From NCBI RefSeq assembly GCF_018279705.1, contig NZ_CP036498.1:4047001-4111000 (forward strand): 64,000 nucleotides of DNA, given 5' to 3'. Positions 8,237-34,077 of the stretch are shown in pieces. Under the pieces are notes generated by a model, which made no database searches, was not told where the DNA came from, and was given only the letters and a program-made list of their open reading frames with translations. The translations under genes and the position numbers were made by a program. Each line of letters starts with the position of its first letter. Positions within the stretch are counted from its first letter, which is position 1. The stretch comes from Tardiphaga alba. Its GTDB lineage: Bacteria; Pseudomonadota; Alphaproteobacteria; Rhizobiales; Xanthobacteraceae.

Positions 8237-9865
8237 TCAGTCCTTCTTGTCGATGTTCCAGAACATCGGGATAGCCGCGCCCGAGGTGACGCCGGTCAGC
8301 GATTTCCGCCACACGCTTGGCACCTTGTATTCGCCGAGCGGGATGTAGATCACCTTGTCATAGACTTCCTTCTGCACTTCGGCGGCGAGCTTCTTCTGCT
8401 CGTCCGGCGAGGTCGCACGCGCATATTTGTCGCGCAGCTCTTCCAGCTTGGCGTCTTCGGTCCAGCCGAACCAGCCGCCATTGCTCTTGCCGCGACCCGA
8501 GGTCGAGACGTTGGCGATCGGATTCAGGATGTCGGCGACGACCCAGTTGGTGAAGAACATGTTCCAGCCGCCTTCCTTCACAGGCTTCTGGCTGGCGCGG
8601 CGGGTGACGACGGTCTGCCAGTCGGTGGCCTGCACCTCGACCTTGAAGCCGGCATCACGCAACTGCTGTGCGGCGACGATCGGCTGCGCCTTCAGCGTGG
8701 TGACGTCGGTCGGCGCCATGATGACGACGGGCGTGCCGTCGTAACCGGATTCCGCGAGCGCCTTCTTTGCGGCCTCCATGCCGTTGCCCTTGATCAGCGT
8801 TTCAGCGCCGGCATCGGTGGCATTTGGCGTGTTGCAGCCGAACACCGCGCCGCACACCGTGTAGTATTTGGGATCGCCGACCAACGCATCAAGCACAGGC
8901 TTCTGGCTCAGCGCCAAAAATGCCGCGCGCCGGACTTTCGGATTATCGAAGGGCGGATTGAGGAAGTTCATGCGACCCAGCGTCTGGAAGCCGAGTGTGT
9001 TGAGTACCTCGACCTGCAGATCCTTGTCCTTCGACAGGATCGGTAACAAGTCGAACGGACCGTTCTCCATGAAATCGATGTCGCCGGATTGCAGCGCATT
9101 CACTGCGGTCTGTGCGTCGGGCATGGTGATCCATTCGACGCGATCGACCTTCACCACCTTGCCACCGGCCTGCCAATCGATCGGCTCGGAGCGCGGCTTG
9201 TACTCCTTGAACTTCTCGTAAACGACCTTCACGCCCGGCTGGAATTCAGCCTGCACGAATTTGAACGGACCCGAACCGATCTGCTCAGGGATCGACTTGT
9301 CGGTCGGCGTTTCAGCAAGACGCTTCGGCATCATGAACGGCACGGCCGAGGACGGCTTGCCGATCGATTCCAGAACGAGGCCGTAGGGCTCCTTCAGCGT
9401 CAGCACGATGGTCTTGGCATCGGGTGCCTCGATGCTCTTGGTGAAGTCCATGAGCTTCTGGCCCATGCCGTCGCGGGCACCCCAGCGCTTCAGCGAGGCG
9501 ACGCAATCTTCTGCCGTCACCGGTTTGCCGTCGTGCCACAACAGGCCGTCGCGGAGCGTGAACGTATAGACCAGCTTGTCGTCGGAGACCTTCCAGTCGG
9601 CCATCTGCGGCTTGATCTCGTATTTCGAGTTCATGCCGAGCAGCGTGTCGTACACCATGTAGCCGTGATCGCGGGTGATGTAGGCCGTGGTAATGATCGG
9701 ATCGATCACGCGGAGATCCGAATGCATCACCGCGGTAATCGTCTTGCCGGCCGCATCCGCGGGCGACGACATCATCGGCAGCGCGAGCGCAGCAGCGAGT
9801 GCCAGGCCAGGCAGCGTGACTTTTGTGAAGGAAGTGGAGTGCCGCCAACGTGACATCATAGACAT
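8237..9865 (-). CDS. Peptide ABC transporter substrate-binding protein, family 5 (DppA/OppA type), copy 1
   Basis: 542 residues from ATG 9865 (AGGAGAGATCG precedes it); the upstream in-frame start at 9943 lacks a site. A signal peptide spans about residues 14-39 (basic head, then LALAAALALPMMSSPADAA). The mature part is a solute-binding protein family 5: DTLLGMNSKYEIKPQMADWK and FTLRDGLLWHDGKPVTAEDC are characteristic. It should bind di- or oligopeptides or a similar amine-containing ligand in the periplasm and feed the DppBC-DF transporter encoded at 14-17.8 kb. A nearly identical copy lies at 10914-12542. Confidence 0.92.
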   Translation of the reverse strand: MSMMSRWRHSTSFTKVTLPGLALAAALALPMMSSPADAAGKTITAVMHSDLRVIDPIITTAYITRDHGYMVYDTLLGMNSKYEIKPQMADWKVSDDKLVYTFTLRDGLLWHDGKPVTAEDCVASLKRWGARDGMGQKLMDFTKSIEAPDAKTIVLTLKEPYGLVLESIGKPSSAVPFMMPKRLAETPTDKSIPEQIGSGPFKFVQAEFQPGVKVVYEKFKEYKPRSEPIDWQAGGKVVKVDRVEWITMPDAQTAVNALQSGDIDFMENGPFDLLPILSKDKDLQVEVLNTLGFQTLGRMNFLNPPFDNPKVRRAAFLALSQKPVLDALVGDPKYYTVCGAVFGCNTPNATDAGAETLIKGNGMEAAKKALAESGYDGTPVVIMAPTDVTTLKAQPIVAAQQLRDAGFKVEVQATDWQTVVTRRASQKPVKEGGWNMFFTNWVVADILNPIANVSTSGRGKSNGGWFGWTEDAKLEELRDKYARATSPDEQKKLAAEVQKEVYDKVIYIPLGEYKVPSVWRKSLTGVTSGAAIPMFWNIDKKD

Positions 9866-10089
9866 TCGATCTCTCCTGACTTGAATCTGGTCATAGGCCG
9901 ATGATTGCTTATGCAATGCGATCCATTTTTGAGCGTTTCGCATTTGTCTTTATGATTTAGACTTCAAAGACTTGCATCAAGCAGGAGGCGCGTCAATCGC
10001 GATTTCGTCGCGTACCGAAACGTCGCAGCGCGCGACGGAATATGCGGAGTGCGAGCGAAGAGAGAGGGTCGGAAGCTGCGCGCACTTGT
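9866..10089. other. Upstream region of dppA copy 1, duplicated at copy 2
   Basis: The first ~130 bases resemble the region upstream of copy 2 (around 12543-12690): both hold TTGCATCA and GTCAATCG blocks in the same order. The duplicated unit therefore includes promoter DNA. No sigma-54 or clear -35/-10 signal was recognised. Confidence 0.4.
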
Positions 10090-10200
10090 CCCTCATCCTG
10101 AGGAGCGCACTCTTGTGCGCGTCTCGAAGGATGGCGGCACGCTCGGAGCCGAGCCAGCTCATGGTTCGAGACGGCGCTGCGCGCCTCCTCACCATGAGGG
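10090..10200. repeat. Interspersed palindrome, family E, copy 1
   Basis: Imperfect palindrome starting CCTCATCCTGAGGAGCGC and ending CTCCTCACCATGAGG, with GTCTCGAAGGATGGCGGC and TTCGAGACGGCG in the middle. About 85% alike by eye to the copy at 10707-10820 and in the same orientation. Confidence 0.8.
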
Positions 10201-10271
10201 CTGCGCTGTAGCGCTTGACTCCACGGCCCCAGCCGCCATCCTCACTCGGCTTAAAGCGGGGCGAGACGCGC

Positions 10272-10580
10272 ATGCTGGAAGGGGCTTGTGTCTACATCTT
10301 GCGATGCGCCGACCGTAGCTACTATGTCGGCATCACGCGCGGCGATCCCGAACTGCGACTAGCGCAGCACAATGTCGGGAGCTTTCCCAGCTATACAATC
10401 ACACGCCGTCCCGTTGAAATGGTGTTCGTCGAGTGGTTCGAGCGGATCACTGATGCCATTGAAAGCGAGCGCCAGATCAAGCGCTGGAGCCGCGCCAAGA
10501 AGGAAGCCCTGATCCGAGGCGATTTTGCCGCATTGCGGATGCTGGCGTCGCGGAAGGGGCGGAGCAAACCGTGCGTGTGA
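10272..10580 (+). CDS. GIY-YIG nuclease family protein (short, stand-alone)
   Basis: 102 residues from ATG 10272. VYILRCADRSYYVGITRG is the GIY-YIG core (the usual tyrosines at YI and YVG, then R in DPELRLAQHN). WFERITDAIESERQIKRWSRAKKEALI is the following helix with the metal-binding Glu. Single-domain proteins like this (UPF0213/YhbQ type) are presumed DNA endonucleases; often they are misannotated as UvrC. It stands alone, opposite in strand to the binding-protein genes on both sides, and is flanked by same-orientation copies of palindrome family E. A role in repeat mobility is my hypothesis. Confidence 0.85.
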   Translation: MLEGACVYILRCADRSYYVGITRGDPELRLAQHNVGSFPSYTITRRPVEMVFVEWFERITDAIESERQIKRWSRAKKEALIRGDFAALRMLASRKGRSKPCV

Positions 10581-10603
10581 CGACCGCTGGAGCTTTTCTG
10601 CAC

Positions 10604-10652
10604 ATGATTCGAGACGCGGGCCTTTGGCGCGCTCCTCACCACGAAGGTGGTG
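10604..10652. repeat. Partial family E palindrome (right half)
   Basis: CATGATTCGAGACGCGGG...GCGCGCTCCTCACCACGAAGG matches the right half of family E. It starts about 25 bases after the GIY-YIG stop. Confidence 0.55.
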
Positions 10653-10706
10653 GGTGGGGCTGGATATGGACGAAGCGGCCGCAAGCTCTCCCCTTATCAA
10701 ACTCCG

Positions 10707-10820
10707 CCCTCATCCTGAGGAGCGCGCTCTTGCGCGCGTCTCGAAGGATGGCGGCAAGCTCCGAGCCAAACCAACTCATGGTTCGAGACGGCGCCAAGTG
10801 GCGCCTCCTCACCATGAGGG
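10707..10820. repeat. Interspersed palindrome, family E, copy 2
   Basis: Same architecture and orientation as 10090-10200, so the GIY-YIG gene is bracketed by direct repeats. Arms: CCTCATCCTGAGGAGCGCGC and CGCCTCCTCACCATGAGG. Confidence 0.8.
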
Positions 10821-10837
10821 ACTGTGAGTGTGCGCTC

Positions 10838-10913: not shown

Positions 10914-12542
10914 TCAGTCCTTCTTGTCGACGTTCCAGAACATCGGAATGGCCGCGCCCTGGGTCAGGCCGGTGATCGAAGTGCGCCAGATGCTGGGCAC
11001 CTTGTATTCGCCGAGCGGAATGTAGATCACCTTGTCGTAGATCTCCTTCTGGATCTCGGCGGCAAGCTTCTTCTGCTCGTCAACGCTGGTCGCACGGGCA
11101 TACTTGTCGCGCATCACTTCCAGCTCGGCATCTTCGCTCCAGCCGAACCAGCCGCCATTGCTCTTGCCGCGGCCGGAGGTCGCGACGTTGGCGATCGGGT
11201 TCAGGATGTCCGCACCGACCCAGTTGGAGAAGAACATGTTCCAGCCGCCTTCCTTCACAGGCTTCTGGCTGGAACGACGGCTGATGATGGTCTGCCAGTC
11301 GGTGGCCTGCACTTCGACCTTGAAGCCGGCATCGCGCAGCAGCTGAGCACCGACGATTGGCTGCGTCTTCAGCGTGGTCACGTCAGTCGGCGCCATGATG
11401 ACCACCGGGGTGCCGTCATATCCAGCTTCGGCAAGCAGCTTCTTGGCCTCGGCGACGCCATTGCCCTTGATAAGGGTTTCGGCGCCGACATCGGTGGCAT
11501 TCGGCGTATCGCAGCCGAACACCGCACCGCAGACCTTGAAGTATTTGGGATCGCCGACCAGCGCATCCAGCACCGGCTTCTGGTTCATCGCCAGGAAGGC
11601 CGCGCGGCGGATCTTCGGATTGTCGAAAGGCGGATTGAGGAAGTTCATGCGCGTGAAGGTCTGGAAGCCCAGCGGATTGAGCACCTCGATCTTCAGCTCC
11701 GGATCCTTCGACAGGATCGGCAGCAGGTCGTAGGGACCATTCTCCATGAAGTCGATGTCGCCGGACTGCAGCGCATTCACCGCGGTCTGCGCATCGGGCA
11801 TGGTGATCCATTCGACGCGATCGACCTTGACCACCTTGCCGCCGGCCTGCCAGTCGGTCGGCTCGGAGCGCGGCTTGTACTCCTTGAACTTGTCGTAGAC
11901 GGCCTTCACGCCCGGCTGGAATTCCGACTGCACGAATTTGAACGGACCGGAGCCGATCTGTTCGGGAATCGACTTGTCCGGCGCGGTCTCGGCGAGGCGC
12001 TTCGGCATCATGAACGGCACGGCCGAAGACGGCTTGCCGATCGACTCGAGCACAAGGCCGTAGGGCTCCTTCAGCGTCAGCACGATCGTCTTGGCATCGG
12101 GCGCCTCGATGCTCTTGGTGAAGTCCATGAGCTTCTGGCCCATGCCGTCGCGGGCGCCCCAGCGCTTCAGCGAGGCAACGCAGTCTTCCGCGGTCACCGG
12201 CTTGCCGTCATGCCACAGCAGGCCGTCGCGCAGGGTAAATGTATAGACGAGCTTGTCGTCGGAGACCTTCCAGTCGGCCATCTGCGGCTTGATCTCGTAT
12301 TTCGAGTTCATGCCAAGCAAGGTGTCATACACCATATAGCCGTGGTCGCGGGTGATATAGGCGGTGGTGATGATCGGATCGAGCACGCGCAGATCGGAAT
12401 GCATCACCGCGGTGATGGTCTTGCCGGCGGCGTCCGCGGGCGACGACATCATCGGCAGCGCGAGCGCGACGGCGACTGCCAAACCCGGCAACGTAAACTT
12501 CGTGATGGCCGCAGACTGCCGCCAACGTAACATATCAAACAC
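10914..12542 (-). CDS. Peptide ABC transporter substrate-binding protein, family 5 (DppA/OppA type), copy 2
   Basis: 542 residues. The start is GTG 12542, 7 bases after AGGAG; ATG 12533 would be further from the site. Signal peptide as in copy 1 (LAVAVALALPMMSSPADAA). The mature proteins are alike over their whole length, differing mainly in scattered residues of the C-terminal half (for example SKDPELKIEVLNPLGFQTF against SKDKDLQVEVLNTLGFQTL). The pair looks like a recent tandem duplication. Both copies read away from the dppBC-DF operon and probably serve it, perhaps with different peptide preferences. Confidence 0.92.
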   Translation of the reverse strand: MFDMLRWRQSAAITKFTLPGLAVAVALALPMMSSPADAAGKTITAVMHSDLRVLDPIITTAYITRDHGYMVYDTLLGMNSKYEIKPQMADWKVSDDKLVYTFTLRDGLLWHDGKPVTAEDCVASLKRWGARDGMGQKLMDFTKSIEAPDAKTIVLTLKEPYGLVLESIGKPSSAVPFMMPKRLAETAPDKSIPEQIGSGPFKFVQSEFQPGVKAVYDKFKEYKPRSEPTDWQAGGKVVKVDRVEWITMPDAQTAVNALQSGDIDFMENGPYDLLPILSKDPELKIEVLNPLGFQTFTRMNFLNPPFDNPKIRRAAFLAMNQKPVLDALVGDPKYFKVCGAVFGCDTPNATDVGAETLIKGNGVAEAKKLLAEAGYDGTPVVIMAPTDVTTLKTQPIVGAQLLRDAGFKVEVQATDWQTIISRRSSQKPVKEGGWNMFFSNWVGADILNPIANVATSGRGKSNGGWFGWSEDAELEVMRDKYARATSVDEQKKLAAEIQKEIYDKVIYIPLGEYKVPSIWRTSITGLTQGAAIPMFWNVDKKD

Positions 12543-22373: not shown

Positions 22374-22461
22374 GTAGGGTGGGCAAAGCGCAGCGTGCCC
22401 ACCGTCACGCGCACGACACTTGAAGGTGGGCACGGCGCAAGAGCGCCTTTGCCCACCCTAC
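22374..22461. repeat. Interspersed palindrome, family C, copy 1
   Basis: GTAGGGTGGGCAAAGCGCAG to GCGCCTTTGCCCACCCTAC, almost filling the 96-base gap between two convergent genes; it may serve as a bidirectional terminator. Confidence 0.85.
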
Positions 22462-28242: not shown

Positions 28243-28260
28243 CCTCCGTCCACTCCAAAG

Positions 28261-28375
28261 CCGTCATCCTGAGGTGCTCGCCGACTTCGGCGAGCCTCGA
28301 AGGACGACGGCGGGCACGCCGGTGCTTGCGGCCCATCCTTCGAGGCTCGCAAGTGCTCGCACCTCAAGATGACGG
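28261..28375. repeat. Interspersed palindrome, family E variant, copy 3
   Basis: GTCATCCTGAGGTGCTCGCC, CCTCGAAGGACGACGG, CCATCCTTCGAGGCTCGC and GCACCTCAAGATGAC. Same plan as 10090-10200 but with GTCAT/ATGAC ends. Confidence 0.8.
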
Positions 28376-28999
28376 GGGAGTTTTTTTGGATGCCGTAGAA
28401 TGCAGCACCGGCCTGTATCCAGCACGGAAGGCACGTAGCGTTGATGGCGGTGTCAGCAGTTGGGCATCGTGGAGACTATCATTGATCTCCGCATACCCCG
28501 CGAATGACCACCGCCACACACGCCCCTGCGCAATCAGATAGCTGTCACTATCAGCTTCCACCATCGCGCCATCCGGCAGCGCATCGACCGGCCCTTCAAG
28601 CGAATGCATCCGCTTCCCGCGCCTCTCCAGTCGCTCCGCATGCAGCACACGGTCGATCTCCGTCGCCTTCACGCCAGAGACACCATTGCCCTGCTCCCAT
28701 GCCGCGCGAAACCGGTTGGCATCGTCTCTCCGGCAATAGAAACACGGGCGATGGCCAGCGGCGAAGGATGTCGCCTCGTCGAGGAAAAACAGTTCGGTCC
28801 AGCTCTGCCGCGCCATCACATCGCGGCGGCGGCCGCGGAATTCGCAGACGCAGGTGATCCAGGCCGGATTCGACCAACGGCGGTTCAGCAGTGTTTTGGT
28901 GGCGGGATCATGAATGATGCCGCGGTTGCCGGTGAACAGGCCGCGGTCGGGAACGGCGACGATATCGCCAAAGGGGGTGACACGGTTTTGGAGGGGCAT
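28364..28999 (-). CDS. Conserved hypothetical protein (211 aa)
   Basis: The start at ATG 28999 is preceded by GGGAGACGCGCGAC. Soluble protein without signal peptide. Motifs that may matter: RRWSNPAWITCVCEFRGR near residue 40 and a CFYCRRDDANRF segment, a CxxC pair within a helix-like context reminiscent of small zinc or nucleic-acid-binding sites. C-terminal region YLIAQGRVWRWSFAGY. I do not know a function. The 3' end overlaps the right end of repeat E3 by 12 bases, so the C-terminal residues (KKTPPSS) may derive from the repeat. Confidence 0.75.
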   Translation of the reverse strand: MPLQNRVTPFGDIVAVPDRGLFTGNRGIIHDPATKTLLNRRWSNPAWITCVCEFRGRRRDVMARQSWTELFFLDEATSFAAGHRPCFYCRRDDANRFRAAWEQGNGVSGVKATEIDRVLHAERLERRGKRMHSLEGPVDALPDGAMVEADSDSYLIAQGRVWRWSFAGYAEINDSLHDAQLLTPPSTLRAFRAGYRPVLHSTASKKTPPSS

Positions 29000-33996: not shown

Positions 33997-34077
33997 GTAG
34001 GGTGGGCAAAGCGTAGCGTGCCCACCTCCAAGTGCACGGCTGGGGATGGTGGGCACGCTACGCTTTGCCTACCCTAC
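33997..34077. repeat. Interspersed palindrome, family C, copy 2
   Basis: GTAGGGTGGGCAAAGCGTAG to GCTTTGCCTACCCTAC, between the transglutaminase and Anbu genes. Confidence 0.85.

Follow-up and report, generated by a model that had tools for sequence, protein, structure and literature searches.

A small GIY-YIG nuclease gene of Tardiphaga alba lies between two copies of a REP-type palindromic repeat in the same orientation, and relatives of this gene in other genomes lie between copies of the repeat type that matches their own nuclease clade. The gene is associated with the repeats, and the association is specific. The locus probably represents the "master" copy in a REP system comparable to a REPtron, with a small GIY-YIG nuclease standing in the place of the RAYT. 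The window analysed here is a stretch of 64,000 nucleotides of the T. alba genome (contig NZ_CP036498.1, positions 4,047,001 to 4,111,000 of the forward strand), and coordinates refer to this window unless another genome is named.

The nuclease locus of Tardiphaga alba

The nuclease gene runs on the + strand from an ATG at 10272 to a stop codon at 10580 (10272..10580) and encodes 102 amino acids, in which PF01541 (E 1.2e-17) is the sole Pfam domain found at E values up to 1. Upstream lies a full repeat of family E (about 10088..10205, + strand; genomic repeat profile E 5.5e-27; ssDNA fold z -5.15), composed of two inverted hairpin halves at 10090-10133 and 10160-10200 with their tags outermost. 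Downstream, a half repeat of the same family (10589..10648, + strand; profile E 3.9e-7), degenerate in sequence and with an ssDNA fold z of -1.34, starts 9 nt past the GIY-YIG stop codon and occupies the identical position beside the relative in genome G001 (locus L035). It is followed by a second full repeat at about 10704..10823 (+ strand; profile E 6.2e-27; ssDNA fold z -5.55), which has the same orientation as the upstream repeat and halves at 10707-10750 and 10777-10820 (single-half fold z -5.05 and -4.15). The two bracketing repeats share 87% identity over 101 nt (10090-10190 versus 10707-10807). The profile used to place repeats in the window was built from 30 genomic copies; it sets the full repeats at 10087-10202 and 10704-10823, and it also detects a weak further family-E copy at 28260..28376 (+ strand; E 3.3e-8). 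An earlier note on this DNA had described a 102-residue GIY-YIG gene between family-E repeats of the same orientation, with an additional half copy, and the PF01541 match, the repeat alignment and the repeat profile all bear this description out. The note had also placed the insertion between duplicated dppA genes. The neighbours, which lie outside the nuclease-repeat system, are indeed a gene for an oligopeptide/dipeptide-type substrate-binding protein (8237..9943, - strand) and its tandem paralogue (10914..12542, - strand), with 86% DNA identity across 300 nt, but "dppA" is an approximate name for them because no NCBIfam equivalog, DppA included, scored above its cut-off. Rfam at gathering thresholds gave 0 matches in the window, PADLOC gave 0 matches, and NCBIfam gave 0 matches for the GIY-YIG protein. 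Elsewhere in the window, two copies of another repeat family (GTAGGGTGGGCAAAGCG...GTGCCCACC) occur at 22374-22434 and 33997-34057.

Residues Y8, Y18, R29, H33 and E66 of the protein, which we take to correspond to the I-TevI/UvrC catalytic set, are invariant in 25 of 25 aligned rows (the window gene included), and among 145 rows labelled by repeat type (see below) E66 is present in 145, R29 in 144, and H33, Y8 and Y18 in 143 each. Because these residues are nearly invariant across the labelled clades, the GIY-YIG proteins of these clades look active. The AlphaFold model of the window protein has a pLDDT of 90.4, and its nearest solved folds are UPF0213 (E 4e-5 and 6e-4), which is matched by sequence profile too, and Slx1 (E 0.003 and up); the protein thus shares its domain and fold with UPF0213-type proteins (PDB 1zg2, 1ywl) and with Slx1. 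The window genome (G000; one contig of 5.86 Mb) contains three GIY-YIG matches, namely the nuclease gene, uvrC and a 94-aa GIY-YIG frame (L002, G000:C1:302424-302633) located some 0.2 kb away from a tRNA-Ala gene, without bracketing repeats.

Structure and genomic copies of the repeat

The full unit of family E consists of two inverted halves, each of the form CCTCATCCTGAGGAG-stem-GTCTCGAAGGATG, with a variant in which CATGG/CCATG replaces CATCC/GGATG. The stem of the window repeat is bulged, at about 10 + 6 bp, and when the window halves are folded as ssDNA the four outer bases stay unpaired. These bases form the tag, which, as judged by eye, is CCTC in the window (CCTC-ATCC) and CGTC in other loci. 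The repeats are REPIN-like in that they comprise two inverted imperfect hairpins with short unpaired CCTC/CGTC tags outside. REPINs are described as inverted REP doublets (Bertels and Rainey 2011, PMC3116915), and the inverted doublets of the window, like REPINs, each form a single large hairpin when folded as ssDNA (z -5.55 and -5.15 for the whole units). The inner stem was perfect over at least 4 bp in 142 of the 164 distinct halves from the fetched loci, compared to 12.4 when 3' arms were shuffled, and these inner stems comprise 34 different arms; outer arms were complementary in 165 of 170 cases, compared to 76.5 expected by shuffling. Hairpin pairing is conserved as the sequence of the repeat drifts.

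Scoring of 40 out of 103 candidates put the family-E repeat at no fewer than 40 distinct sites across the 5.86 Mb genome. Among these 40 scored sites, the sole pair less than 1 kb apart is the two copies beside the nuclease gene. A hand estimate (40 repeats, 250 nt per side, one gene, 5.86 Mb) puts the bracketing of the gene by chance at about 3 in a million. Genome G001 contains three repeat halves at an even spacing of 307 bp (G001:C1:2313706-2314362), apparently repeat-plus-spacer units arrayed in tandem, and three downstream units about 171 bp apart at its nuclease locus. Many relatives of the nuclease (L060-L083) end in a C-terminal tail like HPSRRPPxAGSSG, which looks as if it is encoded by an overlapping repeat, so that the repeat may supply C-terminal residues of the protein.

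Repeats bracket the gene in genus, family and phylum

Six of the 18 genomes of the genus, G000 included, contain the nuclease gene or a relative of at least 55% identity, and five of these six loci are clearly flanked on either side by family-E repeats or halves; at the sixth (L039), the only matches are weak ones to halves of a different type (E 0.001-0.004). The 20 more distant GIY-YIG loci retrieved from the genus (L040-L059) gave no family-E match at E <=0.01. In the family, 82 of 296 genomes contain a relative at E <=1e-15, for a total of 94 genes (one gene in 70 genomes, two in 12), and all 94 loci were retrieved. Among the 92 of these genes with enough flank to be scored, repeat half-elements were found on both sides of 71, on one side of 19 and on neither side of two, so that 90 of 92 had an element on at least one side. 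By comparison, of the 5,398 control positions, which were taken within 80 named loci and not within the family loci, none had elements on both sides and 124 had an element on one side. That homologues would be bracketed more often than chance allows had been set beforehand as a test of the idea, and both this comparison and the one that follows come out in its favour.

A scan of named genomes provided a best 80 loci, mostly titled as alpha-proteobacteria from Bradyrhizobium to Caulobacter. These loci were examined by a test that is agnostic to the repeat, in which the similarity between the 200 nt 5' and the 200 nt 3' of the gene was compared to that of sliding controls (10,777 controls in all; four of the 80 loci were dropped for short flanks). 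In 56 of the 76 evaluable loci the gene ranked above all sliding controls from the same locus, and in the other 20 it did not. By eye, the aligned flank stretches are the same kind of repeat in diverging versions. Repeat density in the best 80 loci was 6.6-6.9 per kb within 100 bp of the gene versus 0.03-0.10 per kb at 2-10 kb, and the regular expression used for these densities matched on both sides of 45 loci, on one side of 23 and on neither side of 12. From a draw of 398 genomes of the phylum, 27 of the window-type loci found were taken; one of them, L290, had already been counted within the family. Three loci were truncated, and 18 of the 24 evaluable loci reached a score of 40. Flanking copies were direct in 43 and inverted in 22 of the 65 among the best 80 loci that reached the score; they are direct in the window.

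It is barely credible that repeats simply land beside any small intergenic gene, so that the locus would be a product of chance or of an insertion hot spot. REPs are reported to be mostly intergenic (PMC3733652), as such an account would have it, but the complete lack of two-sided bracketing among the control positions argues against it, as do the more distant relatives of the gene. Of 42 distant relatives matched in other classes of the phylum, 40 were fetched, and only four of the 40 were bracketed, two of them with controls that scored equally or nearly so; unlike the window clade, these relatives, which we take as putative UPF0213-like proteins, are rarely bracketed. Among 49 relatives on viral contigs, two of the 45 evaluable reached the score, both with the same score, and neither uvrC (L003) nor L002 of the window genome is bracketed. 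In the two viral contigs in question (L358 and L359), which may be prophage or host sequence, the sequences to either side of the relative match each other. Relatives at E <=1e-10 were found in three of 72,556 plasmid records.

The repeats also lie close to the gene. Upstream, the median distance from the end of the nearest element to the start of the domain is 14 nt (75 of the 94 family loci); downstream, the median distance from the stop codon to the start of the element is 16 nt (79 of 94), and the element touches or overlaps the stop in 26 of these 79. Such proximity to the start and stop codons could be taken to mean that the flanking repeats are selected as terminators or operators of the nuclease gene, which we regard as very improbable, since regulation of this kind predicts nothing about matching copies elsewhere in the genome or about their match to the nuclease clade, to which we now turn.

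Repeat type matches nuclease clade

A protein tree was built for 161 loci labelled by the repeat type in their flanks (16 were without any). On this tree, which is based on few columns and has 79 of its 158 forks open, the 145 labelled loci show 21 label changes, compared to a mean of 71.6 and a minimum of 65 in 500 shuffles; the regular expressions behind the labels were devised after the alignments had been viewed, which makes this result descriptive. Among the 20 loci titled Bradyrhizobium, labels change once compared to 6.0 times when shuffled, and the repeat type therefore tracks the gene rather than the host genus. When clades were assigned from the protein alone, using reference rows from the tree of which some came from genomes of the test set (e.g., L161 and G272), protein clade and flank type agreed in 93 of the 94 family genes: 43 clade-A genes were flanked by type A, 50 clade-B genes by type B, and one clade-B gene by type A. 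Ten of the 12 genomes with two genes have one gene in type-A and the other in type-B repeats, and the other two have both genes in type B.

The same correspondence extends to copies away from the gene. When exact halves were counted across the 296 genomes, the medians for type A and type B, respectively, were 25 and 1 in genomes with clade A (n=33), 1 and 22 in genomes with clade B (n=39), and 27 and 21.5 in genomes with both clades (n=10). The opposite repeat type was the commoner in nine single-clade carriers (three of clade A and six of clade B), and the two types were equal in one. Within genus g25, all six genomes with only clade A have more type-A repeats and both genomes with only clade B have more type-B repeats. 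The window genome, which has a clade-A gene, contains 35 type-A and 19 type-B halves. This match between clade and type, both beside the gene and genome-wide, is evidence that the earlier note had not foreseen.

Carriers, non-carriers and the turnover of repeats

The presence of repeats in the 296 genomes was examined with a pattern covering both repeat types, and the reversed pattern, used as a control, matched in none of the 296. The 82 carriers of the gene had a median of 38.5 matches and none had zero, compared to a median of 5 matches among the 214 non-carriers, 73 of which had zero. Counts in carriers include the bracketing copies; after four matches per carrier were subtracted, the median was 34.5 and two of the 82 carriers were at zero. 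Genomes are not independent, and counts were compared at the genus level only; there, the median of carriers was higher in 17 of the 17 genera holding both states, also with four matches subtracted. The expectation that genomes without the gene would lack the repeats thus holds statistically and fails in its strict form, as 56 of the 214 non-carriers contain at least 20 repeats. The 16 richest non-carriers (at least 50 repeats each) are all without a gene of this clade: in 14 of them every GIY-YIG gene is a distant one, and the remaining two have no GIY-YIG gene.

The tandem transporter site was compared among genomes of the genus. The nuclease gene is present at this site in G001, together with extra repeat copies, while the tandem genes in G002, G005, G007, G015 and G017 are without such an insertion; the relative of the nuclease gene in G002 sits at a different place. 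What remains in G014 (L203) is the half copy together with the downstream unit and a few terminal bases of the gene; the upstream unit and the rest of the gene are gone, and the best reading of this non-carrier is that it retains a remnant of the nuclease locus, i.e., that the gene has probably been lost. Bradyrhizobium loci with clade-A genes align over most of 20 kb, which indicates that the gene stays put within this lineage. Repeats away from the gene were compared at orthologous sites (71 comparisons from 23 repeat clusters), where 28 had a repeat in both genomes and 43 in one, with "absent" meaning that the regular expression did not match, so that a decayed repeat would count as absent. 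One such site has a dimer in L096, a single half in L093 and none in L097. No target-site duplication was found by eye at the empty sites, a point against the proposed REP system. Presence and absence at orthologous sites, a feature shared with REPINs, reflect gain or loss of repeats, with either direction possible.

The distribution among carriers bears on the possibility that the nuclease is a tolerance enzyme, which would trim or resolve the cruciforms and stalled forks that the repeats cause, as Slx1 might, and would not move the repeats. The gene would then be kept beside the repeats because the two are co-inherited and repeat-rich genomes need the nuclease. The higher repeat numbers in carriers are consistent with this account, as are the closest folds (UPF0213 and, with weaker E-values, the branched-DNA nuclease Slx1) and the fact that the gene is single-copy in 70 of 82 carriers with surroundings conserved within a lineage, as in the long Bradyrhizobium alignments. 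Nevertheless, we think it unlikely, as it leaves unexplained both the close bracketing (medians of 14 nt before the domain start and 16 nt past the stop) and the 93 of 94 agreement between repeat type and clade, and repeat-rich genomes without the gene exist.

Other GIY-YIG clades and their repeats

An initial reading, in which repeats were lacking at the genus's 20 more distant GIY-YIG genes, was dropped because the repeat-agnostic test found most of them bracketed by other repeats; it holds for family E alone. Of 52 other GIY-YIG loci taken (one was dropped for its flank), 40 of 51 were bracketed by some repeat scoring at least 40, each of them outscoring all controls from the same locus, and bracketing was below this threshold at 11 of the 51, among them uvrC and L002. 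No p-value is drawn from the cross-locus null, which is inflated by the sharing of REP families among loci (9.6% of cross pairs score 40 or higher). By eye, the repeats beside these loci belong to other REP families, and their labels also follow the tree, with five changes compared to 20.0 among 40 labelled loci. The REP families flanking five further GIY-YIG groups (labels D-H; L040-L059 and L165-L193) are different ones, among them canonical CGTC REPs and a Br-REP2-like repeat. Repeats of the CGTC type bracket several loci of these clades, e.g., CGTC-ATGGCCGGG-CTTGT-CCCGGCCAT-CCAC, and CGTC-AT is found beside several distant GIY-YIG genes; the repeats beside L044 and L048 have a stem of 8-9 bp, a loop of 4-5 nt and a CCA tail. 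GIY-YIG clade E is flanked by ATTCCGGG repeats at eight loci, on both sides in six. By eye, these resemble the consensus of Br-REP2 of Bradyrhizobium (PMC5082802), an element for which the available part of the published account names no partner enzyme.

Comparison with RAYT/REP systems

RAYT genes are described as flanked by REPs and as coevolving with them (PMC2817692), and a folded REP is reported to be cleaved in vitro by TnpA-REP (PMC8266576). In the features of genome organisation tested, the system described here is RAYT-like, with the possible exception of the orientation of the flanking copies. As in RAYT/REP systems (REPtron, TnpA-REP), a genome contains one or two genes for the nuclease, which are tightly bracketed by REPs; many repeat copies are scattered through the genome; enzyme and REP co-diversify; and the repeats occur as inverted doublets that fold into hairpins. 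In a possible departure from RAYT/REP systems, in which the flanking REPs are inverted to each other, flanking copies here may be direct or inverted (43 versus 22). It is not a RAYT system, having the wrong domain and the wrong tag: the enzyme is a GIY-YIG protein (PF01541) rather than a Y1/HUH tyrosine transposase (PF01797), the tag is CCTC/CGTC, unlike that of the GTAG REPs of RAYT systems, and the partner of these REPIN-like repeats is a GIY-YIG gene, not a RAYT.

It could be argued that another enzyme (a RAYT or an IS transposase) moves the repeats and that the GIY-YIG gene is merely carried along as a passenger, given that REPs elsewhere are ascribed to RAYTs (PMC2817692, PMC3116915) and that CGTC REPs are suggested to be moved perhaps by a broad range of transposases (PMC3733652). 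However, the Y1 transposase domain PF01797, the transposase class covered by the search, was not found in G000 or in 10 other good genomes of the genus (11 of 11) and gave one weak match among all 18, whereas a control search matched in five of 14 named genomes, E. coli included. Together with the finding that repeat type tracks the GIY-YIG gene itself, this makes such a passenger role improbable.

A close description of the repeats is that of the CGTC superfamily, one of two large REP superfamilies, predominantly alpha-proteobacterial, with tags CGTC/TGTC/CCTC, a stem starting with AT, families with stems of 8-9 bp, loops of 4-5 nt and a CCA tail, and dimers (Di Nocera et al. 2013, PMC3733652). 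The window repeat shares the CCTC tag, the stem starting with AT and the dimers; as compared by the text description of that survey, it differs from the 8-9 bp families in its longer, bulged stem. CGTC REPs are said there to "apparently lack a dedicated transposase" (PMC3733652). In contrast to that account, in which, as far as its available text goes, no associated transposase was found, a GIY-YIG gene accompanies the repeats here. The main text of a 2025 REP survey is without mention of transposases or nucleases (PMC12306157), and no paper linking GIY-YIG proteins to REPs was present among the matches listed in open PMC, a search in which few subscription papers or bioRxiv preprints were covered.

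A proposed role for the nuclease

The earlier note had proposed a GIY-YIG analogue of the RAYT/REP system, and the bracketing, the repeat counts and the match between clade and type support that proposal; the nuclease would then be the enzyme that cuts and moves the repeats. From these patterns we infer an enzymatic role in the cutting, binding or mobilisation of the repeats. In the proposed mechanism, the nuclease would bind its own REP folded as a hairpin, either single-stranded on the lagging strand or as a cruciform, and would cut at the tag or close to it. DNA hydrolysis by GIY-YIG enzymes proceeds with no covalent intermediate, so that re-insertion of the freed or copied unit into intergenic DNA would be left to host replication and repair. 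A point against the proposal is that we know of no strand-transfer chemistry among GIY-YIG enzymes. The gene would remain mostly single-copy and fixed in place within a lineage, and the repeats would turn over and could outlive a lost gene.

That each version of the enzyme pairs with its own version of the repeat suggests that the nuclease is the missing partner of a repeat class thought to be partnerless. With evenly divided confidence, we extend this proposal to GIY-YIG nucleases as a second, independent class of REP-mobilising enzymes. By hydrolysing folded DNA, with no HUH chemistry involved, several GIY-YIG clades would each drive a REP family of their own (the CCTC/TTCGA type as well as the canonical CGTC type). 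These nucleases would be the missing partner of the CGTC REPs, and their systems would span the alpha-proteobacteria. REPs are common in bacteria, and the CGTC superfamily gains a named candidate enzyme with a measured specificity pattern, which makes the question of its enzyme accessible to bench experiments on small proteins and oligonucleotides. If the proposal is true, REPs have entered into partnership with a nuclease on at least two occasions, the enzymes being unrelated, and there would be an enzymatic cause behind the dynamics of intergenic repeats in rhizobia and their kin.
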